From Cliona cf. orientalis (lineage: Eukaryota; Porifera; Demospongiae; Clionaida; Clionaidae), in the NCBI GenBank assembly GCA_963930775.1, contig OZ005697.1, positions 8,640,292 to 8,704,291 on the forward strand: 64,000 nucleotides of DNA, in the 5' to 3' direction. The notes beneath the pieces were generated by a model. That model saw nothing but the letters and a program-made list of their open reading frames with translations, ran no database searches and was not told the origin of the DNA. This document shows positions 97-63,910 of the stretch, piece by piece (position 1 is the first letter of the stretch; each line of letters begins with the position of its first letter). A program made the translations under genes and the position numbers.

Positions 97-3000
97 TCAC
101 AGTGACTTGATCTTAGCAGCAATATCACTATCAAATGGCTTCACAGCTTCAGCCAGTTCTTTCCAAGTGGGAGGAGGGTCTACTCGACTAAGCCAAAGTT
201 TTAATGTCTCCCTTAGACAACTGGGTGCGGTCGTAGCAGAAGCCCGGATGGAATCTTGAAACTTGTCTAGTCTTAAACAAAGTCCAATATTCTCCCATTC
301 ACTCGCCAATGGTAGCAGCAGAGGGAAAGCTTTCGATAAATGGTCTACTCCACAAGATGAAACAACTGGGATGTCTGTATGTCATTATGGTAGGTATACA
401 TAATATTATGATGTCATTGATGTGATATTACCCCAGGTTCAATTAGAGGTTCGTAAGATACCATAGATTGGGATATTTTCATTGGTGAAATAATGTAAAA
501 TTTACATATAATCTAATTTTTGTAAAATGTACACGAACATAATCATTATACTAATTACATGCATAAAATATTTCACATGTTTAATTTTCATCGGTAAAAA
601 TCGTCGACAAAATTTTTTTATAACGGAAATTTCTTACTCTACAGTAATACACCCCAAGCAGGACAGTCTGGAGTATAATGCCCTGCTTGTGGTGCGTTAA
701 CTGTAAATATTAGCCTCACAAATAGATATTACCAGCTATAGCTTAGTATACAGACCTTTTGCAATAGTTTTGCAGGCATCCACAGCATCCTTTGTTCTTC
801 CACTAGCCAGGAGGGCTTCGATAAACACTCTGTATGTTGCTTTGAAGGCAAACTTCTCCTTCCATCGTCCCAGCATCCCAATTCTTTTCTCATCCACAGT
901 CTGGTAGTCACCATTCACGGCAGCAATGTCAGCTTCAGACAGCTTTAGGTGGAGACCAATGAGTCTCCAGTTCACACAGTGTTTGGAGAGATTCAGGAGC
1001 ATCTTTTGTGAGAATTCTTGGTCGAGAATATCAAAGTTGACAATACCAGCTCGAGTAGCTACATCTAATAGACTAATCCCACTATCTGCCATTGTAGCAT
1101 CTTAAATATGAGTGCATATAATTAAGAAAAAGTTGCAATACAAAGTAATAGATATTTCCTTGAAGCAATCTTACCAGAAGATGACGAATCAGCATGAGGT
1201 ATAGAATGCTCACTAGTGTCTTCACGAGGTCTTGGTGATGAGGCAACAGCTGCAAACACCAGGATTATTGAGATATTACTATAATTATACACTTAATAAT
1301 ATATCGGCCATGGCCATGGTATACAAAAATCAGAAATTAAGTCCCTCTGTGAGTCAATCATTCATTGTAAATTATTGAGAAATAGTTGACAATGGGTAGT
1401 ATACGTGAGAAGCTATATTTATAATTATACAGACAGGTCAGGACATGCATGTTGTATCTCAACTATTTTGAAATGCTAGCCATAATATTTACATACCAGA
1501 TGCTTGGGTTACTGATGTAGTATTAACAGGTTGTTGAGTGACAGTTGATGGAGCTGCATACAGAGAATCTGATGTAGTGAATGATTTCAAATTGAAGTAC
1601 CTACCATAGCTAACTTACATAAACTCGGAAGGTTATGTTGAGCAAGCTCAGAACTCGCATTGTCATCAGATGTGGAAGAAGCTGCAAGAAACAGAGTACA
1701 GTGGCTACAACATTCAACGTGATATGATTATTACATAAATACCTTTAGTAAGTCCGAACCATACCAGGTGGCCAGCTTGGAGTGGGTACGAATTAGTACG
1801 AGCTATGTCGCAAGTCAAGAAAGTTTTCTTGTCGTTTAGAGTAGCGGTGTGCGGTTTGAGTTCCTCGGGTCGATCAGTGGCAGGTGAGGTCTGAGACGAT
1901 AGTCGAGTATGAGGACAGTGGAAGGTGAACTCTGGTTTCGTTTGCTTGTAGTTGAGGGCAATGCAAGCAGCATCGATGCCACTGAGGATGGCATTCTTGA
2001 TGACATTCAGAAGAGCTGAGCATTCACTCGGGACAGCTCCAGCTGCAAGCTTGATGTGCACTTCAATGAGGGAGTTGGAATCGATCAGTGTGACAGAGCA
2101 AGGAGGGTCAGTGGGAAGATGCAGCTTAAAGCAATTGCGATAAAGTGACTGATCGTCATCAAGAATACGACTCCACCCAAAGTGATTGATGAGGTGGACC
2201 ACAAAGCAGCAGAACACTCCAGCACGACGAGAACCTTTGGGGAATCGAATGAGAAGAGGAGCAACTTCGGAAGATGATTCTCTATACTGAGCAAGAGCTG
2301 CTTCCAGCAGAGACTCCAAAGTAGCAGGCATCACAAAGTGGGTTTCCTCCTTGTCAGACTTGTGGTCATCTTGATGTGTGGTGGGAGGATTTGGAACATC
2401 CTTATGTGCAGAGGCTGGATTTGGAACAGGAGCAAAGACAAGAAGCTTCTTTAATAGCACACAAAGGTCATCAACGGAGAAGATACCAGGAAAATAGTGT
2501 CGACTGAAGGTCTCTGATTTCAAGCACTCTTTGCTGACGATGCCTCTATCTCTAAAGTGACTCCACTCACCCTCCAAAGGAAAAGAACTCTCGTCTGATT
2601 TAGGCTGTCTGAGCAGGAAACTGTGGGAAACCAACTCAGACACTTTATCGAGTGGAATTTGTGACTCAATAAAGACAACATTTGGAAGGATTTCTGGTAA
2701 ATACTTGATGACATTGAGCTCATCAAAGAATTTCAAAGCAGCATCAAATGAATCGCTACGAATACCAAGTAATCTAGCCATTTCCAGACACTCTGCCCTG
2801 CTAAGTACCCCTCTACCTAGCTCTTTAGCTAGCTCCTGGAGTAGCAGCTCCATGATGTACCACCAGATGGGTATCTCCACTTTCCTGGCTCCAGAGCACT
2901 CAATGGCACACCTGAGTGACTGAGCAGTGCCCTTTTCTCTTTCACCTGGGTTGAGCGTGTTGAGAGTGAAGAGTAGCCTTTTCATATCATTTGAAGGATA

Positions 3001-4004
3001 GACTAGCTGATTGCCAAATTCTGGTTTCAGCATGTCTAGCAGCTGTTTATCCTTCTCTTTCACACTTTCTATTGTGCCACTGGGCTTCACTTTTGACTCT
3101 TCTTCTAGCTTGTCAAGGTGAGTACCGACCATAATGATCTTGGGTGGCTGGTTTTGAGCAGAGTATGACTGGATGGTGCTGACGAGACACTGGATTGTGT
3201 CTTTGGTTGAGAACTGGGATTGCTGAGTTGCTCCAATCTGCTCTCCATCTTTGTAGTACTCAATACCTTGCATTTCATCCAGCTTGTCAGTAAGACGAGT
3301 GACACACAAGGCAGAGGAGATGCTACGGACAAACAGTGGCAAAAGCTCATGATACTGAGGCTGTCCTCCGCTATCTGTGAAGTAGACCCATTTGGACTTC
3401 AGAATGATCTCACCAATAGACTGCAGCTGCTCTGAAGAGCCATCTTGACAATCAGCCTCTCCTTTTGGAAAGCCACCGCGTTTCAGCCTTGAAATCTGCA
3501 GCACTATCTTCTCCTTAATTGAATTCAAGGCTTTTTGGCAGCTGTCTGATAGTGTGGGCTCGGCACGATCTTGCTTGCTTTTGTGAGACTGCTTCAAAGA
3601 AGGTAACTGCGCTCCAGCTGCACCTTGATCTTGTGATGAGAATAGGTTGGCCACCTTGGTAAAAATGCTCTGCTCTGATTTCTGGTGAAGTTGAGGCTCA
3701 GCTAAAAGAATCATCTTTGATACAATATCCAGCATGTCTTCATCGCTAACCTCTTTCCACTGCCCTCGTATGTTCTGAACTTTTGTCCCTGAAACTGTTC
3801 GAATTTCAACCCGGACTGGGGTTTCTGCACAGATGGTGCTGGTGCGACGGTGAGGCGGTCGCATATCTAAAAGCAAATACTTGAGATGTGTTTTCCCCAC
3901 TCCAGGCTGGCCCAGCACAATGCACACGACAATGATAACTTCCACAAAGCCATCCTTTAATGCTTCATTGAGCAGCTTTTCCGATCGCTTTTCCGATTGC
4001 TTTT
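97..4004 (-). CDS. Roc-COR GTPase-like protein with C-terminal death-domain-like modules (5' partial)
   Basis: Probably a signalling or innate-immunity GTPase. The exon chain on the minus strand is 4004-1743, 1681-1619, 1553-1497, 1249-1175, 1100-756 and 365-97; every internal junction is phase 1. The first listed exon opens at a TATGCAG acceptor, so the true start lies upstream and was not found. Its 754 residues hold a Walker A motif GQPGVGKT (about residue 31), a Ras/Roc-like switch DSGGQPQY, a G4-like THLDKL, and then a COR-like region. Three short Ser/Thr-rich linker exons follow. The 345-nt exon encodes a helical death-domain-like module. The last exon encodes a second one (start about VDHLSKAFPLLLPLASEWEN). 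TGA at 99-97 ends the protein, but a strong GTGAGT donor overlaps this stop, so an isoform may continue left of the window. An alternative stop (TAG at 736) exists if the 756 donor is unused. Family by motif recognition; the exact ROCO subfamily is unknown. Confidence 0.72.
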
Positions 4005-5474
4005 CTGCATAAGACCACGCACACGGAACATAAATTTAATTATGAGTAGGCATGTCAGAATCATAAAAAAATCGCCTATAAAAAACCTGCACACATTTAA
4101 ATATTATGAAGTTTCAGGGATCATAGCTACTCACTACAATGTGCTACGAACACCAAACTAGCACCACATGCTTCAGAAAAGATAGCACTACACTGCAGTA
4201 TCTAAAGTGTTGGGTTGTAACCACTTCCGGCATTGCAGGGCTTCAGGAAAACTCCATAAAATACCACATACTCAACTACTGTGGCACACAAATATTGCTA
4301 ATGGATAACTTCAACTTGCTCCATGCTGCTCACTTTTCCAGGGCATTTTATGCTTCTAGGGGTACTTCAGGGTGCTGATTTCAAATTTTTCAGTAGTTTC
4401 AACCATTTTTGAAGTGTTTGGTCGAAAAGAGCTCAATCAGCATTTTACTTTGTGTAAAATAGCATGTGTACATATGAGAAAATGCGTTGAAAATATGAAA
4501 AATGAAATTTTTGGCTCAAACTACCCCTAGCTAGACTATTTCTGCCAAAAACATGCTACATACAAAGTGCACGCACTTTAAACTCATTGTTGCTTCTAAG
4601 GAACTCGGGGCTTGTCTTACACTTTAAGAATAGATTCCACTTCAGAAAACAATATTAATATGTGTATAATGTGCATATACATGTATGAACATGTGTGTGT
4701 ACCACTGTGAGAGTTTATGTATGTGTTTGAGTGGACATCTAAACTAGAAATTTCAAAAAATCATGCATGAAGTCAGCTTCTGGAGTTCTGAGGCAGTGAA
4801 GTATTAGCTACAATAGCAGTCAAACCGGTATGCACACCAAATTTTTTTTATTCATTAATGCATATTAAATTCATCAGTAGAATAAGCAGAGAGGTACTTA
4901 CATGCTATATTTCAAGTTTGGAGTCGATCAGTAGTGTAGTTTGTGAATTATAGGCCTCTAAAGCAATCAACATGTTATGTGCCATTCCCCTATTGGAATA
5001 GTACACACAAGCCTGGCAGAAAAATTGTGATGTTTAGAAATATTAAAACAGCCATATCTCCGCAACCACTCAATGAAATTTATGGAACAAAGACTAAATT
5101 GTATCTTGAAGCCTCCTTTATTATTATGTGTAGCAAAGAAAGTGTAAGGGATAATATAAAATTTTGATGTAATATGCCTATTATGAGTGCTACATATAAT
5201 ATTATCTACACAAGTTCCAGTATTATGGGTTTCTAGTTGTTGTATATAACTCTGGGTTGGTACAACTATGGCAACTGATCAAGTGCAGCAACGCAAAATA
5301 GAGATGATTGCAAATCGCTAGTACAATGTCATTGTTTATGTGCAATAATTAAGATGGATATTGCAATAGCTAGTATATTGGCTAATTAAAAGGCAAACAT
5401 TGCAGTCTATAACTCTTCCTACCAAAGACAATAAAAGCGGCCAAATCAAGAGAGATATGCAAATAATGCACGAG
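4005..5474. other. Intergenic or intronic spacer, no supported gene
   Basis: AT-rich sequence upstream of the first visible Roc-COR exon. It may contain the missing 5' exon of that gene, since the exon at 4004 begins at an acceptor. No reading frame here has a recognisable domain. The short open frames near 4139 and 4943 lack splice or protein support. Confidence 0.6.
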
Positions 5475-11325: not shown

Positions 11326-14300
11326 TCACTCAGTTTTCATGTATACATCATTATCATAAAAACTCTCAGTGATTTCGATATTAGTGTCATCTTCCGCACC
11401 ACAATTGGTCTTATTCTCAATTAACTCAAACTCGTTCTTATTTTCATGGTGGGTCTTACGAACCTCCTCCATATCTTCGTACAGCGGTGTCTTCTCAGCT
11501 TTGGTGGATTCATTCATATCGATAGTATTCTGATTGGCTGCGGAATCGTTACTTCCATATGCTGAGTTTATGGTGAGAAATTTAGCGGTTGGATTAATGG
11601 CACCCATATTTTGAGTGACCGTGTCAAACTGCGATGGTGTTGGCTTTTTGTGCCTAATGCACATGCGATTAAAACATGCTCCCGAGAAGCATCCAATTGT
11701 TAGACCAACACTAAGTGCGATCACAGCTGCAATCGATGTGGTTACTGGGAGGGAAAATATGGTCGACTGAGCAGACTCCGATCCAGTAGGGGTCCCTATA
11801 AAGAAAATTAAATTTCCATTATCTAAGACCACTCAGAATTAAATATTTGAATTAACCCGACCGACTATAATATTAAAGCACCCAATAGCTGAGTTTACTA
11901 CTAGCATATAATATTACATTATACCAACTCAGACTTTTAATAGGACTGTCTTAAAAATGTATTTTTAAGCTACCACACAGCACTTGTAATTAAAATTCTT
12001 TGGTTAAATTATCACCTGCCCACCTGACCAATCCTAGCATTTTGTGGTCATGTTAGTTCAAACAAACAATTTATTCTGTGTGGCCTAAGCATGTAAGAAA
12101 ACTGTAGTATTACATGCATCAGATCCTACAGTTATTGGAGCTCAAAGGAGTCCAATTTAAATCCTAGACTATATACATTTCTATGAGAATTGGATCCCTT
12201 AAGACAAATATTATGACGTATTTATACCTGTATTTGAACATGAATGTATACTGAAGGTGTCTTGTATCATCTTAGCCGGACTTCCATCCACGATGGCCGT
12301 TGCACGGTAGCAGTACGTCCCCTCAGCCAAAGATGATGGGAGGAGTGTAGCCGATCCAGATCCGGGAATGACATCCATGCAGGTCATGGAGCTCTGACAA
12401 GATCTGCTCAAACTGTAGCAGAACTCACACTGGAATGACTGATCTGTTCCAATGTACCCCCGTGAACATTCCAGTACTTTGGTTTTGGCATCAGTTGAGT
12501 CGGTCACTGTCAGAAATGCTGAGAGCACTTGAGCTGTGAGAATGTCAAAGGTGTAAGTGTAAAAATAATTTATCCCACAACAAAATTGTAGATAGTTAAT
12601 TGACCATGTTCTGTTGCATGACTCCATTAATCTTGGAATTACTGCTATCTTCTGGACCATAAATACTTATTATTGTGCATTTCTTTCCTTATACCAAGAG
12701 TCGTGATATTACACAGTGATTTGCAACAATTAGTGATCATGGGATGACCAATAATTGTAGGCCATACCTTAGGCTGACAATTATTTGCAGGTACTTTTTC
12801 TGCAATTTTGACTTAAAACACATTTTACAAGTTCTAAATTTTGCAATTTGTACGCAATAATGGTACAGGGCTGACAATCTGAAATGCATGCATGTCTAAC
12901 TAGTGTTAGCGCTAGCGGGTAAAAAATTTTGGGTCAATCCGCTAGAATATCAAGCATTAGTACCCATAAAAGATAGCCAGTCACCTTAAGGTATCTACAC
13001 TTTAGTACTACTCTTCATAGTGTCGTACTTACAATCATAATGACATGTATACTGTACTATAACAATTAATTCATACCGCTTGTCTGTGGCCTTAGCAATA
13101 AGCATATTCTCCCACTACCAGCCACATTCTCGGCTGCCACTTGTCCATTATAGTCTGCTCCACTAGAAAGGCTGGAGTACTGGACCGGGTAGGAGTATGA
13201 GCAAGTGCCAACGGCCTTGTTTGGACAAACTGCCTGAACGGGAACTCTGTGTGTACCAGAGCCAACAAGAGAGAGGGTGTAGCCTGTGATGTTGAGATTA
13301 CTGGCTGACCCCGCAGTGGCTGCAGATGGCACCTAACGTGTTAAAAGTAGCTATGTTGACGGTTAAATCCATGGGTGCATATTGTAGTTATGATACCACT
13401 GCATAATCACCAGGGGCGTAGCCAGGATTTTCTGAGGGGGTTTCCTACGAAAAATTTAACGACCACGCCCACTTTTCGGCCACGCCCTCTAATTAACGAT
13501 CGCCATTTTCAGCTAGAGCTTGCTAGATTCTCGAGATTTTGGCAGAGAAAAGCACAAAAGGAGGAGACCTAGGCTAAGTTTTAGGAGATTTTAGTGTCTG
13601 CACAGTGAATTTGGAAACCAAGGGGGGTTTCCTGATAGCCAAATCATGCTAAGATAATACTGAATCTGACTGCCAGGGGGGGTTTCCGGGCAACAAGGAA
13701 ACAACTAAGCTACGCCCCTGATCACAGAGGTCAGGCTTGGTATGTATGTATCGAATAGGCTATATTTATTGTGTGTACAAGTATTACGTGCACTTACGTT
13801 GACTTGAGCCCAGCTGAAGTAGATTAAAGTAAGTGTTCCTTCCTCATTGTACACCGGCACGCTTGAGCAGTTCATAGGCGGAGGGGGAGCTATAGAAGGA
13901 AGCATAAATAGTCAGTGGCACTGTACTGTCTTTCCTTATCACTTTTTAAGTGTCTATTCATGGGTACATTACTAAAGACTAATCATGCATATTTCAGAAT
14001 TAAACTCTAAATTGATAATAAAATTTAATAATTTCGTACTAGATTCAGTCTCAGTGTGATATGTGGGGGCCTCAGTTGTAATCTCCTCAGTGGTAGTGGT
14101 AGGGGACTGAGTTGTAGTTTCCTCAGTTGTAGTGGGGGCCTGGGTTATTATGATTTCCTCAATAGTAGTAGGAAGCTCAGTTGTAATCTCCTCTGTGGTA
14201 GTGGGGGCCTGAGTTGTCGTAATTTCCTCGGTGGTGTGGGTTGTTGTGATTTCCCCAGTAGTAGTAGGGGGTTCAGTTGTTGTAGTTTCCTCAGTGGTAG

Positions 14301-17300
14301 TGGGGGCCTCAGTTGTCATGATTTCCTCGGTGGTAGTGGGGGCCTGAGTTGTCGTGATTTCCTCGGTGGTAGTGGGGGCCTCAGTTGTTGTAATTTCCTC
14401 TGTGGTAGTGGGGGCCTGGGTTGTTGTAATTTCCTCGGTGGTAGTGGGAGGAGCAGTTGTGTAGACTTCATCAAGTATTGTCACGTCGTATGAGTCTATG
14501 TGTATGTCATACAGGGTACAGGTTGGAGCATTGGGGTCCATATTGCTGGAAACATCATCATAAATGGTGACTGCACTACTGCATGCACTAATAGTCTCCC
14601 CCACATTTGCTGTGTTGTTGTAAATGTTTGTCTCATTTATGTGAAGGGAACTTCCAGCCAAAGAGATGACTCCTCCCCTGTTAGTTGCATCGTTATTGCT
14701 AAAGTTGCTGTTGCTGAATGTTACAGCACTTGCAGCATGTCCAACGAACAACACTCCTCCGTCACCACCGGCGGAGTTGTGACTAAATACACTACGTTGA
14801 AGTTTGTAATTTGTAGAGTATTCACTGTTGTACATAACTCCACCATTACCAGCAGCTGAATTGCTGGAGAAGATACTTTGCTCCACAGTCACATTGCATT
14901 CTTCAACCTTAAACACACCGGCATGTGTTGCTGCTGTATTGTGGCTGAATTCACTGGATTTGATTGAAACTGATGCATTCCTGATGCAGGCTACTCCTCC
15001 TCCTTCAAGTGTTGTTGTTGTAGCTCGATTATGAGTGAAAGTACATCCTGTGATGTTTACATGATCAGTGTAAACCTCCGAAACATGTAAAACACTACAC
15101 GAGGGAGCTGAGTTGTAGCTGAAATTACTGTTGATGAAAGTTACGTATCCAGGATATCCAGAATGGTATGAAATGAATTTTGCAACGCCACCTGATTCTG
15201 TTCTGGCAGTATTATTGATAAATGAGCATTCGATGAAAGTTATTGAGCGAGGTGCGCCATAATGCGAATATACTCCTCCTCTCAAATCTGCAGTATTTCT
15301 CATGAAAGTGCATCGAGTGGCCGTAAGTATTGGAGCAACAATTGCTCCACCAAATCTGGCAGAATTGGAATCAAATATTGTGTCTTTGATGGTTCCATAT
15401 CCTGTACTATCTATCCAAACTGCACCAGCGCCCTCGCGCTCAGCATTATTCTGGAAGAAGTGGCAGTTGGTTATATTTGCATATCTGGCATTTACAGTAC
15501 CAAGGCGATTGTTTGAGAAGCTACTGTTCTCAAGTGTAAGATGTCCAGCACAATGAATGGCCCGCAGGTTGTTGGTGAAGTTGCATCGTGATACATACAT
15601 GGAAGAGGTTTGTTGACTCACCCTGTAAGAAATGGCTGGATCTCGGTCAGCATGACTTCCATAAAAGTTGCTGTCTGTGATATTGAGAGTAGAAATCTCT
15701 CCAGCATCGGTTATATAAAAGTGCCCATAACCACGGTCAAATGTTGAATTCGATACCACCATTTTGCTAACATTTTGGATCTGAAATGAATAACCTGATG
15801 AAGTGTGGATTCCAGTAAAATGCACTGTATCAGCCAGTGAACGAATATGTTTGAAATAGCCGCCAATAAAGCGTGCATTAGAAAAAGTGGCTGTAATTCC
15901 AGTGTCTGCAAATGTTCCAGGGCATGATTGAAATGTCACACCACTTATCATAATATGGTCAATTAAAGAGAACCTGATTATATGTAGATTACCACTACGA
16001 CAGTGGATAGTAACATTGGTGCTATCTATAGTCAACTGTTGAAGATTAGATAGTGTCCATTGAGGTGATATGAGTGAGTGGGTTCCGCTTTCAAATATCA
16101 GTGTGACATTTCTTTTGTTGTTTTGACTAACCCGGCGTTCCAAGTTGATAGCAAACTGTTCCAGTGTATAACATGGCACTCCAGAGTACTCTCCAAGACA
16201 AAATGATGCTGGTGAAACTATAATGTAGACAGTTTCGGACAAGATGTCATCTGGTGGAGATATAAGCCTTGAAAGTTGCTCACTCGGAGAACTAGGACTG
16301 ATTGATTCTATGTTGTAGTTGTCAATGTGTCCATCATATAGAACACAGCTTGATTCATCTGGATCTGTAGCATTCCAAACGCCCTCCTCGGGGACTGTGA
16401 CTGCACCATTGCAAGCACTAATGAGTGGTCCTTTATTTGCAGTATTGTCTATGACATTACTTTGAAACAGGTACACTGTACTTGCAATAAGAGTTATGAC
16501 CCCACCTCTATCTGCTGCACTGTTTGAAGTAAAGTTGCTGGCAGCTATGATTGCCAGATTACCAGACTGTCCAAGATATATCACACCTCCATCATCTCCT
16601 GCTGTATTATGGCTAAATGTGCTTTGAAAAATGTTGTAACTTGACGTATGTACCAGAGTATAAAACACACCACCGTCGTACGTAGCTGAATTGTTGAAGA
16701 AGGTGCTATCAGTCACCGTTGTATTGCACTGTTCAAGATTTAATACTCCAGCATGAACAGCAGCTGTGTTGTGACTAAACTCACTGGATTCGATTGAAAC
16801 TGACGCGTTCCTGATGCAGCCCACTCCTCCTCCTTCAAGTGCCGTTGTAGCTCGATTGTGAGTGAAAGTACATCCTGTGATGTTTACATGATCAGTGTAA
16901 ATATCCGAAACATGTAAAACACTACATGAGGGAGCTGAGTTGTAGCTAAAATCACTGTTGATGAAAGTTACGTATCCAGGAAATCCAGGATGGTATGAAA
17001 TGAATTTTGCAACGCCACCTGATTCTGTTCTGGCAGTATTATTGATAAATGAGCATTCGATGAAAGTTATTGAGCGTGGTGCACCATAATGCGAATATAC
17101 TCCTCCTCTCAAATCTGCAGTATTACTCATGAAAGTGCATCGAGTGGCCGTAAGTATTGGAGCAACAATTGCTCCACCAAATCTGGCAGAATTGGAATCA
17201 AATATTGTGTCTGTGATAGTTCCATGTCCTGTACTATCTATCCAAACTGCACCAGCGCCCTCGCGCTCAGCATTATTCTGGAAGAAGTGGCAGTTGGTTA

Positions 17301-18135
17301 TATTTGCATATCTGGCATTTACAGTACCAAGGCGATTGTTTGAGAAGCTACTGTTCTCAAGTGTAAGATGTCCAGCACATTGAATAGCCCGCAAGTTGTT
17401 AGTGAAGTTGCATCGTGATACATACATGGAAGAGGTTTGTTGACTCACCCTGTAAGAAATAGCTGGATCTCGGTCAGCATGACTTCCATAAAAGTTGCTG
17501 TCTGTGATATCGAGAGTAGAAATCTCTCCAGCATCGGTTATATAAAAGTGCCCATAACCACGGTCAAATGTTGAATTTGATACCACCATTTTGCTGACAT
17601 TATAGATCTGAAATGAATAACCAGATGAAGTGTGGATTCCAATAAAACGCACTGAATCAGCCAGTGAACGAATACGTTTGAAATAACCGCCCATAAAGCG
17701 TACGTTAGAAAAGGTGGCTGTAATTCCAGTATCCGCGAATGTTCCAGGGCATGATTGAAATGTCACACCACTTATCATAGTATGGTCAATTAAGGAGAAA
17801 CTGACTACATGTAGACTACCACTACGACAGTGGATAGTAGCCTCCGTGGTTGTCATCAGTGTCAAATTGTGCAGATTGGACAGCGTCCAGAGTGAACTTA
17901 GCATGTGAGTTCCATTTTCGAAAACAACAGTGAGATTTGAGCCAGCAGTGTGTCCTGGATTGGCAGCAAACTGGTCCAGTGTCATGCATCGTGCACCAGG
18001 GCAGGGATTGCTCGACGAAACCAAGACATGAACTGTTTCTGTGGCACAGCTTGCATGCCTGACAAGCATGCAGGCTAGCACGATGATAATGAGCATACTG
18101 TTACCTGTATGCTTAGTTGATGGCCACATGGACAT
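11326..18135 (-). CDS. Receptor-like type I membrane protein: two Pmp-like beta-helices, Thr-rich stalk, membrane helix, tyrosine tail
   Basis: Five exons (18135-14040, 13889-13798, 13332-13077, 12533-12228, 11795-11326) join in frame to 1739 residues. Residues 1 to about 33 are a signal peptide (SMLIIIVLACMLVRHASC). Two long halves (about 35-640 and 645-1250) are parallel beta-helix with recurring FxxN and GGA/GGV motifs, such as SFINNTAR, RGGVYSHYG, GGAIVAP and DGGVIYLG. This is the signature of chlamydial-type Pmp repeats, here rich in N-glycosylation sites. A Thr-rich stalk of TTTEEITTTEAP units follows. Next come Cys-containing extracellular segments that look fibronectin-III-like (PPPPMNCSSVPVYNEEG) and a helix IAAVIALSVGLTIGCF with a basic stop (NRMCIRHKK). 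The tail of about 120 residues contains YEDM (a YxxM motif) and YDNDVYMKTE. An adhesion or recognition receptor is inference. Introns and the animal-type tail exclude bacterial contamination. Confidence 0.8.
13411..13720. mobile_element. 310-bp MITE, terminal repeats CAGGGGCGTAGC
   Basis: Starts CAGGGGCGTAGCC and ends GCTACGCCCCTG, flanked by a 5-base direct repeat ATCAC (13406-13410, 13721-13725). The interior is non-coding. The CAGGGG ends are typical of hAT-derived MITEs. It sits in an intron of the beta-helix receptor gene. Shorter elements with GGCGTAGGAA ends at 21731 and 27951 may be relatives. Confidence 0.65.
14060..14460 (-). repeat. Coding minisatellite of the Thr-rich stalk
   Basis: About ten tandem units of roughly 36-39 bp encode TTTEEITTTQAP and variants (TTTEETTTTEPP, TTIEEIIITQAP). 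They lie inside exon 1 of the beta-helix receptor. The product is a probably O-glycosylated mucin-like stalk. Unit number is likely to vary between individuals. Confidence 0.8.
14480..18050 (-). repeat. Intragenic tandem duplication, period about 1.83 kb
   Basis: The two beta-helix halves of the receptor are near-identical over long stretches. For example, the block near 15262-15516 recurs at 17089-17343 with an offset of 1827 bases and few differences. Identity falls towards the edges of each half. This indicates a recent duplication or ongoing gene conversion within one exon. Confidence 0.85.
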
Positions 18136-19744
18136 CAGATCTTAGCCGTACGGACGCTGCAAACTGGAAAAGAACAGTACTTAGCTACATGACATTGACA
18201 TTTTGTAGTTAATGCAACTGAATGTATCCAAATTGATAGGCGAAGTGCAGTTCTAGTCAGCTTCACAGTTCAACTCAATTAGCGGATTTAAAAATACAAA
18301 TTTAGTTGTTTCATGCATTTTCATGCATTTTAGACAATATTCTATGGCTAATATCGTGTTTCTATTATGTATTCGCAATCATTGTATACTCACATGTTTC
18401 TTCTATAAGCCAATGGAAGAGTTAGTCAGTGTTTTGATTTATAGCTGGCTCGTCCTCTCTTGCACTTTCCAAATGGGAGAGCTTAGCAGACGGTCTTGAA
18501 CTATAATGTACAGACCTCAACTGCAAAATGCAATGTGAGAGCGATTGTGTTATTTTTATAGAAATTGGGTTGAGGGTGGATATACAGCAGTCTATATAGT
18601 CTAGTACAGTGGGTGTTTAGTTTCACGGATTTCACGGTCAAATTAGACTTTCCTTGTTGTTTGCACTTTGTGCAAGGAGGAAGCAGTCATGCTCAATAAA
18701 GGACAGTTAATTAGTAATTAATAGATCATGGTGCTCACCATGCCACAATAATATTATTATATTGACACTCATTTGGAGTCTCATTGACTTTGTTATGGGT
18801 TACACTCTATGCACAATTAAATAGTAATGCATAACAGCTAATTTTGATCAAAAAAAAAAAAAGGATACTCAACTCAATAATAACATGCATGCTCCAAACC
18901 CATTAGTTAAAGAAAGACCCTTGGTGCACAAAAATGCGGAAACCATACATCAGCATTCTCATCAAATGGCTCAGTTTACCTATAAGTGGAAAGCTGAAAG
19001 CTTTATCTATTCATGCAAAACAAAACGGCAGCTGCAAACGATTTCATCTGTGGCACTTAGCTAACGGGTTAAATCAGTGGCGTAAGAAGATGTTTTGGAG
19101 TGGGGGAGGGGGGGCTGAAAATTGGCTATTGAGTAGCTATGGCGGGCTATACCCACCAAAACCTAGTTGGGGGGGGGGGGGGGGGGGGGGGGGCCTGGGG
19201 GCAACTCCCCCCCCCCCCCCCCAAGATAATTTTACATCTTTTTGGAGTGATTCTAGTGCATTCTGAGCACATTGGTTGACAAATTTTAGTACCATTTTGT
19301 TTGACCAAAGTTCAACTGTGACACTCTGAACAAAAGCCTGCTCATCCAAAACACTTGAGATAGCCAAGTAACTAGCTAGCTACATTGCAGAATATTATGT
19401 GAACAAAATCGAGGCTTCAGGCATAATAATAATACTATTATTGTCCTGGCACAGATTCTGAATTCGAACTAATATTCAAAAGTGTACTATCTGAGGGTGT
19501 AGCTAGATAGTACATAATTACTGGGTAGGCTTATTTGGGGGAAGGGGGGGGGGGGGGGGGCGGGTAAGCTCCCTATATTATTTTGAACTCCAGCCCCCTG
19601 GTTCTTATGCCAGTCACGTGTAGATGTCAATACTCTATCTATCAGACCCAACTCATCATGATTCATGAGCAGTATTACTCTTAGTCTTGCATTATTTACA
19701 AGTCCCAAAATGTTTTCCTGGAAACAAGATATTGAACTCAAGTG
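18136..19744. other. Spacer between the divergent receptor and carboxypeptidase genes
   Basis: Holds the upstream region of the receptor gene (possibly with a 5' UTR intron), an A-tract near 18850, a GGCGTAAGAAGATG fragment near 19080 resembling a MITE end, and long G and C homopolymers. No coding exon was supported. Confidence 0.5.
19169..19222. repeat. Poly-G / poly-C inverted homopolymer
   Basis: A run of more than 20 G is followed after about 15 bases by about 15 C, able to form a G:C hairpin or a G-quadruplex. A similar G run lies near 19545. Run lengths in the assembly are unreliable. Confidence 0.8.
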
Positions 19745-19808: not shown

Positions 19809-22800
19809 ATGGCTTGCAGGCTAGTGTGTTGTGCGTATTCTCTGTTGCTTGGATCTCTCCTCCTCCTCCTCCTGCCAAGTCAGGTCTCCTGCTCCTACTC
19901 CTGGCCAGACAATGTCACACAGCACAAGGGATACGTCGAAGTATGTGAGAACAAAAGCAATCATTCTTGAAACACTGCATCTTCTTGCTGTGATGTAGTA
20001 GTGTAGCTATTAATATAAATTACCGCATCAAAGGTGATTGTTTTAGTACTTTCATGCATAAAACTAGTAAAATCTTTCTATGATTGTTGAATCCATAAAA
20101 ATCAATTAATAGGCATTCCTATAGGTAAATCACACTCATGGAGTGAATCTGTTTTATTGGTTTTTCGAGAGTCGTAATGAGCCCAGTAGTGATCCCCTGG
20201 TGGTGTGGTTGACCGGAGGGCCTGGCTGCTCCAGTATGCTGGCTCTGTTGGTGGAGAATGGACCTTTTCTCATCCCAGAAGGAAGCACAGACCCAGTCTA
20301 CAATAAGTATGGTGGGTAGACATGCATACTCGAAATCAAGTAGTCGCATCTCTCTCTCTCTCCCTCTCTCCCTTCCTCTTAGGCTGGAACTCCTTTGCCA
20401 ATCTTCTCTTCATCGACCAGCCTGCTGGTACAGGGTTCTCCTATGTCACCAATCCCCTTGACTACGTCACCAATGAGCGTACCATAGGGACTGAACTTTG
20501 GACCATGCTGCAGGAGTTCTACTCCCTCTACCCCAAATATGCCAACCTCGACCTCTATATCGTCGGGGAGAGTTATGGTGAGAAGAACCTTGTAGTTTAA
20601 GATCATGCACTAAAAACTAGTTTAGTTGTGCTAAATGCAATTATTACTGGTGATTAGTGCCTGCATAGCTACCATTGTTACGCATGACATTGTCACATGA
20701 TCCTGGCATTTTATATCTCTCATGCCCAGCTGGCCACTATGTACCTGCCACTGCTCAAATCATCCTTGAGAGCAACTCCATCTACACAAAGAACCTCAAG
20801 GGAATTGGTATTGGAAATGGATGGGTGGACCCATATATTCAGTATCCTGCCTATGCAAAGGTGAGTGAGAGGGAGAGAGAGAAGGAAGTGGGAGATGGAG
20901 AGAGAGAGAGAGAGAGAGCAGGGGGAGACAGATTCAACTCTTCCCCTTTACAGTTTGCTAAGTTGGAGAACCTGATCACTGAGCCTAGTTTTGAGATAGC
21001 CAATATCATGTTCACTATGTGCAAAGGTACCCTATTAATGATAGCTGTACAGTCACTGAGACTACCATAGTTTTCTCTCACTTTTTTTCCAGGCCTTATT
21101 GATCTTCATCTGTACAGAGAAGCCTTTAAGGAATGCGAGGTGAGGGCTGCACCATCATTGTATTTGACACTAAATTTTTGTGTACATGTATAATATCATT
21201 AAGGTAGATAGATACCAGATATGCATTAGCTATAAGTGCTACTTTCTCGTAAATGTCATTTTCTGAATCATGGCCACCTGTTCTTTTGAACAAGCCCTGA
21301 CACCATACAAACTTACATATTATTACCTCTAGCTCACTGTGTTGGCTGTTTTGGAGTCTGCAGAAAGAACACTAGGAAGAAGGTACCTACCCAAATCAAG
21401 ACTAGCTGCCCAAATGTATATAATTATGCACCTACTACACCCCCTCTATATCAAAGTATCAATTTGTATGACATCAGGAAGAGATGCATTTCATCAGCAC
21501 TCTGCTATGACTTTTCAAGGGTGAGCAACTCGAGTCAATACCAATGTTCAAGTAAATCTAATGCAACTTGTTATACTCATAGTGTGTGTGCCATTAATTT
21601 AGGTGAGTACGTTTCTGAACCGTGCTGATATTCAAGCTGACCTTGGTGTGAACTGGACCTGGGAATCGTGTACCCAGCAAGTCTACAACCATGTGAGTTA
21701 CACATTCTACCTAGATTTTTTGCTATTCAAAGGCGTAGGAAGATGGTTTGGTAAACGGGAGCTCTATATAGATCTATAGGCAAGGGGAGTATGATCAGTG
21801 TATATAAAATTGAGCCTAGCTATGTAACTATCAGAAAACACAGGGGGGGGGGGCACCAGCCCCTGGAGCTCCCATGGTTCCTACGCCTATGCTACTTATA
21901 CAAGGGAAGCAACAAATGTAATATAGCTACTTAAGCACTCTCCTCCAGCTTGGTATATAAGTTGTGAAAAGGAAGAATTGCACTTAGCTGTATAGATCGA
22001 GGAAAAGATTACAGGATTAAATTTGATTACTTTTTATTGTAATGTTGGACCCCATAGTTGCTAGGTGATTGGGTTCATCAGTTTGCCTGGGCCACTGGTA
22101 GTGTGCTGGACGCTAAGAAGAAGGTCGTCGTCTACAGCGGAAAAGAAGACTATATCTGTAACTACATTGGAGGAGAGGGATGGACCAACGTCACACAGTG
22201 GAAGGAACAGGTGAGAGAGAGAAAGGAGCACTGAGTGTCTGTTACTACATGTATAATATCATAGCTGGAGTTTATTCGGCATCATTATTCTGAGTGTAGT
22301 TTCTTGATCTGTGGAGTGAGAGCTAGCTACTTTTAAGACATGCACTTTAATGTTAATATTACTCTGTGCATTATACACTAGCTTTTAAATGCAAGGTACA
22401 AGCTCACTTACTGTCTTGACCACTCTTCAGAACATTACGTTGTAATGTATCTACATTATTGCATTAACTTATTATTATATCCAGGATGCTTTTCGCAGTG
22501 CTGAGACGGTAGACTGGACAGTGGGCGGGGCAGTTGCTGGGCAGGTCAAGAGCGGAGGGGGGCTGACCTTCCTCGCTGTGGAAGGGGCGGGGCACATGGT
22601 ACCCATGGACCAACCAGCTAATGTGAGAACTCCCATCATTAGTGCCATAGAAATTTATGTGTTTGGTATATTGATTAAATATAATAATAATATATTCCAA
22701 ACTTATGATGTTCATTGCTCAAACATGCACTCCCATGGCATTGCAGGCATTGGACATACTGGATCATTTGGTTCACGATAAACCATTCAGTACTTCTACC

Positions 22801-59639: not shown

Positions 59640-60420
59640 AAACAAGCAGGTTATCAGAACTTAAGCTTTTCTCTTTCTCCCTGCATCACTTTAGTAAACA
59701 TGGCTGTTTTATTTAATGGCATCATATACACTAATCATCATCATCAGTCAACAGCCTCTTCAGCTTTGGTCAGCATTAACGCTCTTAGCAACAATAGTAG
59801 TCCCAATACCAAACTATAATATTATAGTACAAGCTCAGGAGAGACACGGTGCATGTTGAGGTTGTTAGTTACCATAACAATCACCAACGATTTTGCATAT
59901 TATCCCAAAATAGCTGATGTGTTGACATTCAATGTGGTAGCTCATAACAGCACTATGCATACATCTAGCACATGTGCCCTAACTCCTTTAAATATACCCT
60001 ATACATGTGCATACACTTCCCCCAATACCTTAATACTTACTATGTCCACATATGTACACCCTCACTCTACTTTCATAAACACTCACACAGGCATACCTAC
60101 TTACACCACATACCCACAAACACGTGTACTTGTGTCCACACACAAAATACCCTGTGACCCTCATCACCACATACCACCTACACATGGGTTCAATTATCCA
60201 AGCACTCTCTTGACAGCTAAATTAAAACTTACTAAACAGTAAAATTAATTACCCTGCCATAATTATTAATATGCACCAGCAATAATTATGTAGTGCCTGA
60301 TCAAGTATACCACAGTGGAGCAAGTCAAAATAAAAACATAGATAATCATGTTTCCTGTGAAAAACTTTGAGATATCAGAGTACTAGTGTCTCTGTGGTGT
60401 GCTCTGTTATTGAGTCAAAC
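59640..60420. other. Spacer, no supported gene
   Basis: AT-rich sequence upstream of the duplicated mini-gene unit. It has CA/CATAC-rich low complexity around 59990-60180. The open frame from 59853 consists of this low-complexity sequence and has no domain. Confidence 0.5.
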
Positions 60421-61057
60421 TCTTGTGTATTCACTAGTAGTCTTGTAGAAACCTTTCACTGGCAGAGAGTTCAATCAGACTAGAAGGATATCTGCCGGCA
60501 AAGGTGGGTACCTGGTGGTCAATGAATATCATCCATAATTACTCCATACAACTGCACTGAAATGTGCACACTGACATACAGTGAACTGTACTTAAGACTT
60601 CAGCCTCACTATATCATGAGAGCTACACATCTTCAGGCCCACCTCACTACATCCGTGAAACAGTTTGGAGTCTTTGATTTGACAAATAATTTGATAAAAA
60701 GATGGAGTGGCTACCTGCAAAGTGCTAATGAATATTTCAGAGAACAGAAAAGACGTGACTTGTGGATATGTTGGAGTACACAGACTTGGGGTATATAATA
60801 GAATCGAGAATGTTCTAATAAACGAGTGCGTGAGTAGGGTGTGTGTATGTGTGTATGTGAAGAAAAACATCTGTCAGCGATAACCGAGAATATGCACAGC
60901 GATAAAATTCCCCGAAGGTAACAGGATAGGAACGTGAACTTGTGAACCAGATGCACACGGCACAAGTCACGAGAATTGCTGAGAAACGTCCCAACTTCCA
61001 ACTTGGACAAACAGCACAATACACCGAGAACCGATGAATACTGAACTATCGAGATAG

Positions 61058-61064
61058 TATAAAG
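61058..61064 (+). promoter_or_regulatory. TATA box, mini-gene 1
   Basis: TATAAAG sits 119 bp upstream of the ATG within GATAGTATAAAGCCATACGA, a block also found in unit 2. Confidence 0.45.
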
Positions 61065-61182
61065 CCATACGAAGTGAACGTTCTTGAGCGATTGAGTCTG
61101 AGATTTTTACGCCACTGCTTCTAAAAGCTACTACACAAGATACTTTACCACCAGTTCGGCACGTTTGATTTCTACCATCAAA

Positions 61183-61676
61183 ATGGTACGTCAAATAATT
61201 ATTGCTGTGGTAAGAAACCACAATGTCTTTGTTGTGTTCTCTATCCCATAAGTGGAACAGTATGGCACCATATTAATATATCTTAAGAGGACCTAGGACC
61301 AATATAGAGAGAAACATACATATTCATCAGGGAGTCATTAGCTAGCACATACTAAGGCAATTATAAAGCTAGAAGCCATAGGCACTACCTTATACTGTAT
61401 ATACTGTACTAAATTCCTATACCAGGGTACATGTAAAGAAAGTGGCTGTACCAAAAATGCGCATGGAGGTAAGTTTAAAAGATGCTTAGAACACTGCAAT
61501 AAAGGATGCAAAGGAGGTCAGGTGAGTGAGATCCAAGAAGCATAAATCAATACTATAATAATATTATTATGAAATAGGGGACCAACTGTGAAACCAAAAA
61601 TTGCAAAAAATCAGCGCATACTAGGTGCTGCCTCAGTCTTTGCACAGATCACTGTAAAGGAAAATGTAGTTCTTGA
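61183..61676 (+). CDS. 65-aa Cys/His-rich basic protein, copy 1, function unknown
   Basis: Exons 61183-61185 (the ATG alone), 61426-61521 and 61578-61676, all phase 0, with donors GTACGT and GTGAGT and acceptors ATACCAG and GAAATAG. The ATG context ATCAAAATG|G is strong, and an in-frame TGA lies about 80 bp upstream, so no longer N-terminus or signal peptide is available within exon 1. Each coding exon encodes one repeat starting with Gly: C-x4-C-x4-H, then CL, then Cys at 3-residue spacing (RCLEHCNKGCKGG; CCLSLCTDHCKGKC). Twelve Cys and three His in 65 residues, plus many Lys, suggest a metal-binding (zinc or metallothionein-like) or nucleic-acid-binding protein. A secreted toxin-like peptide is less likely without a signal sequence. 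No known family was recognised. Confidence 0.68.
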
Positions 61677-62552
61677 AGTAACCATGCAGTGAACTGAAAC
61701 TTTTTGATTAGCAACCATTAGTCTATTATTGTTTTTGCTGCTATATTATTATTAAAATTTGTATTATTTTAACAATAGCTAATTTTTTTTGTTGATAACC
61801 CTAGTGCATATTATGCATATTAATAATTTACATGTAATTTATTTATAAGGGTACTACTGACTGGCATTTAGCTATTATAATATAGCTACATAGATGTACA
61901 GATTAATATAAATAGTGGGGTTGTGTATTCATGCACTAGTAGTCTTATAGAAACCTTTCACTGGCAGAGAGTTCAATCAGACCAGAAGGATATCTGCCGG
62001 CAAAGGTGGGTACCTGGTGGTCAATGAATATCATCCATAATTACTCTATACAACTGCACTGAAATGTGCATACTGACATACAGTGAAGTGTACTTAAGAC
62101 TGCAGCCTCACTATATCATGAGAGCTACACATCTTCAGGCCCACCTCACTATATCCGTGAAACAGCCTGGAGTCTTTAATTTGACAAACAACTTTAAAGA
62201 TGGAGTGGCTACCTGCAAAGTGCTAATGAATATTTCAGAGAACAGAAATGATGTGACTTGTGGATATGTTAGGGTACACAGACCTGGGCTATATAATAGA
62301 ATCGAGAATGTTCTAACAAACAAGTGAGTGAGTAGGGTGTGTGTATGTGTGTATGTGAAGAAAAGTATCGGTCAGCGATAACCAAGAATATGTACAGCAA
62401 TAAAAATTCCCCGAAGGTAAGGGATTGGAACGTGAACTTGTGAACCTGATGCACACGGCACAATGCAAGTCACGAGAATTGCTGAGAAACGTCCCAACTT
62501 CGACAAACAACACAATACACCGAGAACTGATGAATACTGAACGTCAAGATAG
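61677..62552. other. 3' region of mini-gene 1 and leader of mini-gene 2
   Basis: Contains the AT-rich 3' flank of unit 1 and, from about 61920, the duplicated leader of unit 2. Open frames in the leader are not conserved between the copies (different lengths and frameshifts), so it is probably non-coding promoter or 5' UTR. Confidence 0.5.
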
Positions 62553-62559
62553 TATAAAG
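62553..62559 (+). promoter_or_regulatory. TATA box, mini-gene 2
   Basis: TATAAAG 108 bp upstream of the ATG, matching the position and context of the unit 1 TATA. Confidence 0.45.
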
Positions 62560-62667
62560 CCATACGAAGTGAGTGATTGAGTTTGAGATTTTTACGCCAC
62601 TGCTTCTAAAAGCTACTACACAAGGTATTTTACCACCGGTTCGGCACTCTTGATTTCTATCATCAAA

Positions 62668-63353
62668 ATGGTAAGTCAAATTGCTATGATGAAAAACCAT
62701 AGTGTCTTTGTTGACGGTATAAGAGGACTTTCCATGAAACTCATCAGAACAGCATGGCATCCTCCTAAATAGGACATGGGGCATGCCATTTCATTTCATT
62801 ACTGTATTTCAGGGAAGCGTTAGCTAGTACATACAAAACTAAAGACAACACGGCTGGGAGCGATAGCTACTACGTTCAGTGATGACTTTAGGGGAGGGGG
62901 TGAAGGGTATGGCCCCATCCTGTTACTATACCCTGTTGGTCATATGAATTTCTAACTCAAGTATATTAATTATACCGAAAGCTTAGTACCTCTATCTTGA
63001 TTACTTCACTGGGGTCTCAGGTCCCCTCCCTAGATAAATCTAAAATTGCCTCAGTGACTCCACAGTGCTATAAATAACACAGGAAATTCTTATAATAGGG
63101 TAAGTGTAAACAAAGTGGCTGTGACAGATATGTACATGGAGGAAATTTTAAACGATGCTTACAACACTGCAATAGAGGATGTAGAGGAAACAGTAGGAAG
63201 GTGAGTGGGATCCAAGAAAATAACATACATGTATATATGCATAATCTGTACTATTAGGGTGACACCTGTGAAACTACCTATTGCAGAAATAGAGTGCATA
63301 CTACGTGTTGCCTAGGTTTGTGCACACTGCACTGTAGAGGACGATGTGGATAG
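62668..63353 (+). CDS. 66-aa Cys/His-rich basic protein, copy 2, function unknown
   Basis: Same structure as copy 1: 62668-62670 (ATG only, donor GTAAGT), 63099-63200 and 63258-63353. The two repeats read KCKQSGCDRYVHGGNFKRCL and onward, and TCETTYCRNRVHTTCCLGLC and onward. All Cys and the His of the C-x4-C-x4-H pattern are kept, while about half of the other positions differ. Copy 1 Lys residues are often Arg here, so basic charge is kept. This pattern of retained Cys/His and charge with diverged filler supports both copies being real proteins. Confidence 0.68.
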
Positions 63354-63910
63354 TTCTTGAAGTACCCATGCAGTGAACTGAAACTTTTTGATTAGCAACC
63401 CTGTAGCAACCACTATAGAGTCTATTATTATTTTTGCTGCTATACTATCATTTTAGTATTTTAATTACAGCTGATTTTTTTTTTTGTTGATAGTGTTATA
63501 ACATGTCAACAGATAACCTAGCGCATATGCATAATATTATTATTACAATGTGATTTTATTTACAAGGGTACTATTGACTGGCATTCAGCCATTAGCCACT
63601 AATATAAATGGAGGAGTTAATTCACTATACAAACATTGCCCAATGAGGCATCATAATTTATAGTGAGACGGCAGTGAACGCGATGATTTATAATAAGTTA
63701 TATAATAGGTATCCCTATATATAATAGGCATCCCTATACTTCTTATGCATACATGTAATAGAAATATTATTATTATATTGCTAAATAATATAGGCTTGTG
63801 GTCCCAAGACTAATATAGCGGAAGTGTGGATCTCAGACAGTCCCTTACATTATATTTATAGTAACACCGTCATGGCATAATTTGTACGTAATCACACATT
63901 CTATTCTTAC
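63354..63910. other. Spacer after the mini-gene pair
   Basis: The first about 250 bp are the 3' part of duplication unit 2. The rest is AT-rich, with a short repeat TATAATAGG(T/C)ATCCCTATA around 63700-63740. No gene was seen. Confidence 0.5.

Follow-up and report, generated by a model that had tools for sequence, protein, structure and literature searches.

A tandem cluster of small Cys/His-rich genes with metal-response-element-like promoter sites in the sponge Cliona cf. orientalis

Gene models and cluster organization

The window analyzed here, C9:8640292-8704291, is a 64,000-nucleotide stretch of contig OZ005697.1 (C9) in the 216.8-Mb, 149-contig genome of the sponge Cliona cf. orientalis. 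Close to its downstream end lie two adjacent mini-genes, A and B, predicted to encode Cys/His-rich proteins of 65 and 66 amino acids (aa). They form the part inside the window of a roughly 22-kb cluster that holds at least nine mini-genes of the same plan on the same strand. In both A and B an ATG-only exon precedes two phase-0 exons, each coding for one repeat, and all four introns of the pair are GT-AG and in phase 0. The coordinates, exon borders, phases and lengths assigned to the pair by an initial annotation, made from the letters of the window, agree with these predicted models, which imply that A and B would be transcribed and spliced. The repeat it described, C-x4-C-x4-H followed by C-x2-H-C-x3-C, is present in all four module-bearing exons. 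The predicted exons are as follows.

61183..61185, + strand: first coding exon of gene A, the ATG alone; donor GTACGT
61426..61521, + strand: second coding exon of gene A, encoding module A2 with 5 Cys and 2 His
61578..61676, + strand: third coding exon of gene A, encoding module A3 with 7 Cys and 2 His, then the stop
62668..62670, + strand: first coding exon of gene B, the ATG alone; donor GTAAGT
63099..63200, + strand: second coding exon of gene B, encoding module B2 with 5 Cys and 2 His
63258..63353, + strand: third coding exon of gene B, encoding module B3 with 7 Cys and 2 His, then the stop

A and B had been presented as a tandem pair; they are adjacent as drawn, but both belong to the larger cluster, whose seven further members, C-I, lie 12-19 kb past the window end. 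The scan for Cys-rich frames used Cys-rich filters and covered 144 kb, made up of the window and the 80 kb after it; the cluster may have more members outside this range, or members with fewer Cys. The models of C-I were chosen by eye and are given on the window scale, where positions above 64000 lie outside the window.

75862-76322, + strand: gene C
77027-77524, + strand: gene D
78527-78842, + strand: gene E
79358-79727, + strand: gene F
80811-81002, + strand: gene G
81349-81673, + strand: gene H
82105-82973, + strand: gene I

In C-I the first coding exon comprises ATG plus 1-3 codons, and introns are exclusively phase 0. All nine by-eye models have open frames, and all 17 of their introns are phase 0 and GT-AG. 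The predicted proteins span 35-66 aa and consist of one or two Cys/His modules; each module offers 7-11 potential metal ligands. A-D (57-66 aa) each contain 12 Cys and 4 His and are 18-21% Cys. Net charge ranges from +9 and +10 in A and B to -8 and -7 in the strongly acidic G and H. The final exon of gene C closes with ACCCKCGL and that of gene D with ACCCNCGLK, which display the CC and CxC spacing of metallothioneins; CC is also present in A3 and B3. By eye, no leader peptide was seen in the nine models, exon 1 contributing 1-4 residues with no hydrophobic stretch after it. Past the first stop of gene C there is a second possible last exon, YPCDICNRYSSWPCTCCCGCD (76508-76573, window scale), which is open and has an acceptor; alternative splicing of the Cys-rich tail of gene C is thus possible.

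A conserved Cys/His module

The 11 modules of the cluster align with C, C, H, C, H, C, C invariant in 11 of 11 (pattern C..C..H..C..HC...C). The expression H-x2-8-C-x2-HC-x2-4-C occurs at 11 places in the 144 kb (14 overlapping matches), all within the nine genes, compared with 0.25 expected in the same length (first-order Markov model, 20 simulations). A shorter form, C-x2-HC-x3-C, yields 12 matches against 0.3 expected, one of them elsewhere, at 4694. Retention of Cys and His amid changing filler, as initially noted, is borne out by the A and B proteins, where 37 of 63 aligned residues are identical, including 16/16 Cys/His positions but 21/47 of the others (hypergeometric P 3.5e-5). Proteins C and D share 34 of 54 aligned residues, with 12/12 Cys and 15/17 Cys/His kept (P 0.008). 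We read this pattern as weak selection on the filler and strong selection on the ligands.

The motif C-x-Y-C-x2-H-C was also tried as a route to a genome-wide family and was rejected: it gave 77 matches against 11 in the control, 7 of them in the cluster, and none of the 20 read among the 70 others was family-like.

Promoter sites and a candidate regulator

The word GCACACGGCAC occurs nine times in the 144 kb, each time on the gene strand and in front of one of five genes, A, B, C, E and G. When GCACACGRYAC is allowed as well, 13 of 13 occurrences fall in these five promoters (A 1, B 1, C 6, E 2, G 3). Gene C carries six GCACACG[A/G]CAC copies at 17-18 bp spacing, gene E two, and gene G three, including one variant. 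The sites in A, B, E and G read TGCACACGGCAC (six copies), while in gene C one copy is TGCACACGAC and the others are GGCACACGGCAC or GGCACACGACAC. A second word, GTCACGAG, occurs five times on the + strand and once on the - strand of the 144 kb. Four of these six copies are in cluster promoters: three lie no more than about 10 bp past the final site of A, B and G, and the fourth is before D, which has no such site. The promoter features of A and B in the window are listed below.

60952..60963, + strand: TGCACACGGCAC, metal-response-element-like site of gene A (word scan; comparison with the consensus and the electrophoretic mobility shift assay probe in passages of PMC9820605)
60966..60973, + strand: GTCACGAG, second shared promoter word, gene A (word scan)
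61058..61064, + strand: TATAAAG, putative TATA box of gene A, 125 bp before the ATG
62450..62461, + strand: TGCACACGGCAC, metal-response-element-like site of gene B (word scan)
62469..62476, + strand: GTCACGAG, promoter of gene B (word scan)
62553..62559, + strand: TATAAAG, putative TATA box of gene B, 115 bp before the ATG

The core recognized by MTF-1 is given as TGCRCNC in a passage of PMC4768315. According to passages of PMC9820605, a high-affinity MTF1 probe contains TGCACACGGCCC; TGCACACGGCAC matches this at 11 of 12 positions and is one letter off the extended metal response element (MRE) TGCRCNCGGCC. The MRE core with its 3' GGC extension is exact in A, B, E and G, four of the nine genes, and TGCRCNCGGC has seven matches in the 144 kb, six of them in cluster promoters (A 1, B 1, E 2, G 2).

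A genome search with the human MTF-1 finger region placed fingers 1-5 at C17:2187600-2188037 (58% identity, E 8e-59); the next best match reached 37% (E 2e-22). The C17 frame contains five fingers, with 84 of 145 residues identical to the human region, and the sixth finger of vertebrate MTF-1 was not seen in the examined part of the frame. In the reverse search MTF-1 was absent from the names in the best 120 of 2353 matches, where long finger arrays dominate, and the named zinc-finger proteins among these 120 had at most 46% identity over the region. The C17 gene is probably an MTF-1 orthologue.

Divergence within the cluster

The upstream regions of A and B belong to a promoter-side module that is 91-93% alike before A, B and C (up to 98% per 100 bp), with introns and exons far more diverged.

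60421..61182, + strand: 5' flank/promoter module of gene A, copied before B, and about 470 bp of it before C
61921..62667, + strand: 5' flank/promoter module of gene B (A/B alignment, DNA search)

Between A and B, 687 of 738 positions are identical in the 5' flank and 166 of 205 in the 3' flank. The exons (76/96 in exon 2, 67/96 in exon 3) are more alike, at 79% and 70%, than the intervening introns (139/229 in intron 1, 35/56 in intron 2) and less alike than the promoter (93%). The gene C copy, at C9:8715224-8715694 outside the window, is 93% identical to gene A DNA; identity between A and C is 96-98% per 100 bp from 60400 to 60799 and about 40% beyond 60900, and the exons of C are unlike those of A despite the common promoter module. 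Because the 5' flanks of A and B are far more alike than the gene bodies, the promoter region appears to be younger than the bodies or homogenized relative to them. It is as if promoters had been homogenized, or copied, separately from the coding parts.

Module identities are 62% for A2-B2 and 55% for A3-B3, compared with 30% for A2-A3 and 28% for B2-B3, which supports an origin of the exon 2 and exon 3 modules before the A/B split. This order fits the earlier proposal of an exon duplication preceding the gene duplication. The internal origin of exon 3 is less secure: A3 and B3 are 29-48% identical to modules of the neighbours C-I and resemble them at least as well as they resemble exon 2, so that gain of exon 3 from a neighbour accounts for the data as well as internal duplication does.

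Searches for relatives

The nearest Pfam family is Zf_WRKY19 (PF24906), a plant WRKY19-type zinc finger, which gene I matches at E 6e-4 with 20 bits against a cut-off of 27, and gene A at E 0.2. Two of the 11 modules match this profile at E<=10, none above the curated 27-bit cut-off; a search of the sponge genome with it returned nothing above cut-off, the best again being gene I at 18 bits. Three other Pfam families matched at E 0.06 to 8.3. In NCBIfam, two thiolation-type families matched one member each (E 0.006 and 0.095), matches that we took as noise from Cys composition and set aside. The metallothionein profile PF00131 matched neither A nor B nor any of the 11 modules; it had no match in the sponge genome, and 14 control genomes were equally silent. 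There was no match by sequence in PDB, and no Foldseek match for a model of the gene I module. Among 5.8 billion proteins, no homologue of A alone was found, and none among 52 candidates for the nine-member alignment. This is weak evidence, because gene callers easily miss tiny split genes. Rfam had no matches within the window, and open-licence literature, judged by titles and abstract openings, offered nothing on a comparable gene family in sponges. The statement that the proteins belong to no recognized family thus stands, with nothing above cut-off in Pfam, NCBIfam, PDB or the 5.8-billion-protein search.

Own-genome searches with proteins A, I, D, E and B placed every match below E 0.1 in the cluster; outside it, E was 0.3 or more. 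Gene A DNA has four places in the genome, all in the cluster, among them the copy before gene C and a short one at 8718249. Gene B DNA has five, four of them in the cluster and one on C15 that is 73% identical over about 95 bp of intron 1. With 4/4 and 4/5 matches inside the cluster, a dispersed transposon origin was rejected. The initial annotation had named a known transposon or a known domain as identities that would undo its proposal; what emerged were DNA matches that lie, with one exception, in the cluster, and no Pfam family above cut-off.

Discussion

We favour, by a slight lean, the reading that A and B are members of a metal-induced, metallothionein-like tandem family whose modules bind metal and whose expression is partly driven by MTF-1 through MREs. 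It is favoured because the proteins are small, thiol and imidazole ligands are kept, no leader was seen, the genes are in tandem, promoter sites are of MRE type and an MTF-1-like gene is present. The Cys/His proteins would work as cytosolic metal buffers, their modules binding Zn(II) and possibly Cd(II) or Cu(I), and metal would raise transcription of part of the cluster through the MTF-1 orthologue acting on the MREs. Location, metal binding, induction and biological role are all predictions from sequence. The initial suggestion of metal or nucleic-acid binding is narrowed accordingly: the MRE-matching sites favour metal handling, and a zinc-finger role is kept as a rival.

The cluster resembles metallothionein genes in its small, Cys-rich products, in coding regions split into several short exons, in its tandem arrangement, and in having MRE-like sites, TATA-like boxes (A, B) and an MTF-1-like gene in the genome. 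It differs in lacking a PF00131 match, in its invariant His, in its finger-like spacing and aromatic residues, in the absence of CxC from A and B, and in a Cys content of 11-21%, compared with about 30%, the value that passages of PMC3419175 give for a tunicate metallothionein. Calling the proteins metallothioneins is unjustified, because profile, Cys density and CxC are not clearly in evidence; our claim is that they would work in the manner of metallothioneins. The same passages describe the amphioxus metallothioneins BfMT1 and BfMT2 as tandem genes with MREs, one MTF-1 gene and, in one case, a TATA box; there, the same in-silico signs are joined by bench tests (PMC3419175).

Several observations weigh against this reading. 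At the protein level, E-I have 35-54 aa and 6-7 Cys (11-17%), each protein has 1-6 aromatic residues, and CxC is missing from A and B. At the codon level, A/B changes fall about equally on the three codon positions (15, 18, 16), so that proof of coding is modest outside Cys/His. The NG86 estimator gives nonsynonymous (dN) and synonymous (dS) divergence of 0.28 and 0.48 for A/B (dN/dS 0.59) and 0.23 and 0.32 for C/D (0.72, with changes over all codon positions). For A/B, LWL85 gives 0.29/0.33 and YN00 0.40/0.17, the latter reversing the order; the estimate is unstable because the estimators disagree on 63 codons. The C/D introns (104/137 and 91/119) are nearly as conserved as the aligned coding sequence (128/162). 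At the promoter level, no MRE-like site was found in the 346-515 bp scanned before each of D, F, H and I. Matches to the bare TGCRCNC core number 143 and are spread over the 144 kb, with a mild rise in two 4-kb bins at 76-84 kb (7 and 10), and one study, in passages of PMC10047149, doubts TGCACACG as an MTF-1 motif in cells.

The last of these points is that TGCACACGGCAC occurs 511 times genome-wide, against 13 for its reversed word. In 25 of 30 sampled loci, all on contig C1, it is carried by one dispersed repeat, and a genome-wide MRE regulon read from the 511 matches was therefore rejected. Since most copies are due to this repeat, TGCACACGGCAC alone proves nothing. The cluster sites themselves appear not to be repeat-derived, because among the matches listed the cluster promoters share just 12-19 bp around the word with repeat copies. 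Extrapolating the remaining 5 of 30 gives an estimated 85 or so non-repeat sites, of which about 0.009 would be expected in 22 kb compared with six found; the sample comes from C1 only, and the A/B and E/G sites are duplication-related, not independent. If TGCACACGGCAC is a true MRE, a repeat has spread such elements. The repeat often extends about 390 bp to the left of the word and 150 bp to the right.

The strongest rival, which we consider unlikely yet worth serious weight, is that the proteins are small structural zinc fingers of WRKY19-like type that bind nucleic acid or protein, the metal being structural and not stored. The sub-threshold Zf_WRKY19 matches of genes I and A speak for it, as do the positive charge of A and B and the AlphaFold2 model of the gene I module (predicted local distance difference test score 79, predicted template modelling score 0.37), which has one short helix at residues 19-23 (CRTHC). 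The fixed spacing and the C-R-Y-C string likewise look fold-like and unlike a loose thiol string, and the aromatic residues also speak for a zinc-finger role. Against it, every scanned member falls below the family's cut-off and few modules match at all; the match reaches only position 22 of the profile and leaves out the module's last Cys pair, and the cluster proteins have no WRKY domain. The acidity of G and H, the lack of a PDB fold match and the promoters of A, B, C, E and G, which suggest metal induction, argue in the same direction.

Disulphide-rich effector or antimicrobial-type peptides under diversifying selection are improbable. Tandem copies, Cys residues kept while filler changes fast, and an A/B promoter more conserved than the exons would suit such peptides. 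The missing leader would not, nor would two His as invariant as the Cys, which disulphides would not explain; NG86 also places dN below dS in both pairs, the reverse of YN00 for A/B. Equally improbable are decaying duplicates or non-coding transcripts whose frames are relics, a reading suited by the even codon-position spread and a dN/dS not far below 1 but opposed by nine open by-eye models with 17 phase-0 GT-AG introns, by ligands retained across very diverged modules and by 11 modules where chance would give 0.25.

Metallothioneins probably have more than one evolutionary origin. The sponge Suberites domuncula reportedly has a small, Cys-rich, cadmium-inducible metallothionein-like protein, which can be likened to the cluster by description only. 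To our knowledge, few metallothionein cases from early-branching animals have promoter, regulator and gene cluster all in view. More tentatively than the metallothionein-like role itself, we suggest that the locus is an independently evolved metallothionein system, built from a new exon-encoded module family expanded at one locus, with MRE arrays, an MTF-1 orthologue that reads them, and promoter modules copied between genes already unlike in their coding exons. If true, the locus would pair the MTF-1/MRE switch with a different, histidine-containing module, and its nine naturally occurring versions could be used to ask how metal preference depends on charge and on the number of ligands.

Other features of the window

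Two further open frames and one exon were observed in the window. The frame at 13972-18141 also consists of two similar halves and a threonine-rich tail.

13972-18141, - strand: 1389-aa frame whose Pfam matches are right-handed beta-helix and Chlamydia-PMP-type repeats (E 2e-28 and 4e-10)
1714-4035, - strand: 773-aa frame that weakly matches a Roc/Ras-like GTPase (below cut-off, E 0.013)
20669-21070, + strand: serine carboxypeptidase exon (Peptidase_S10, E 2e-9)

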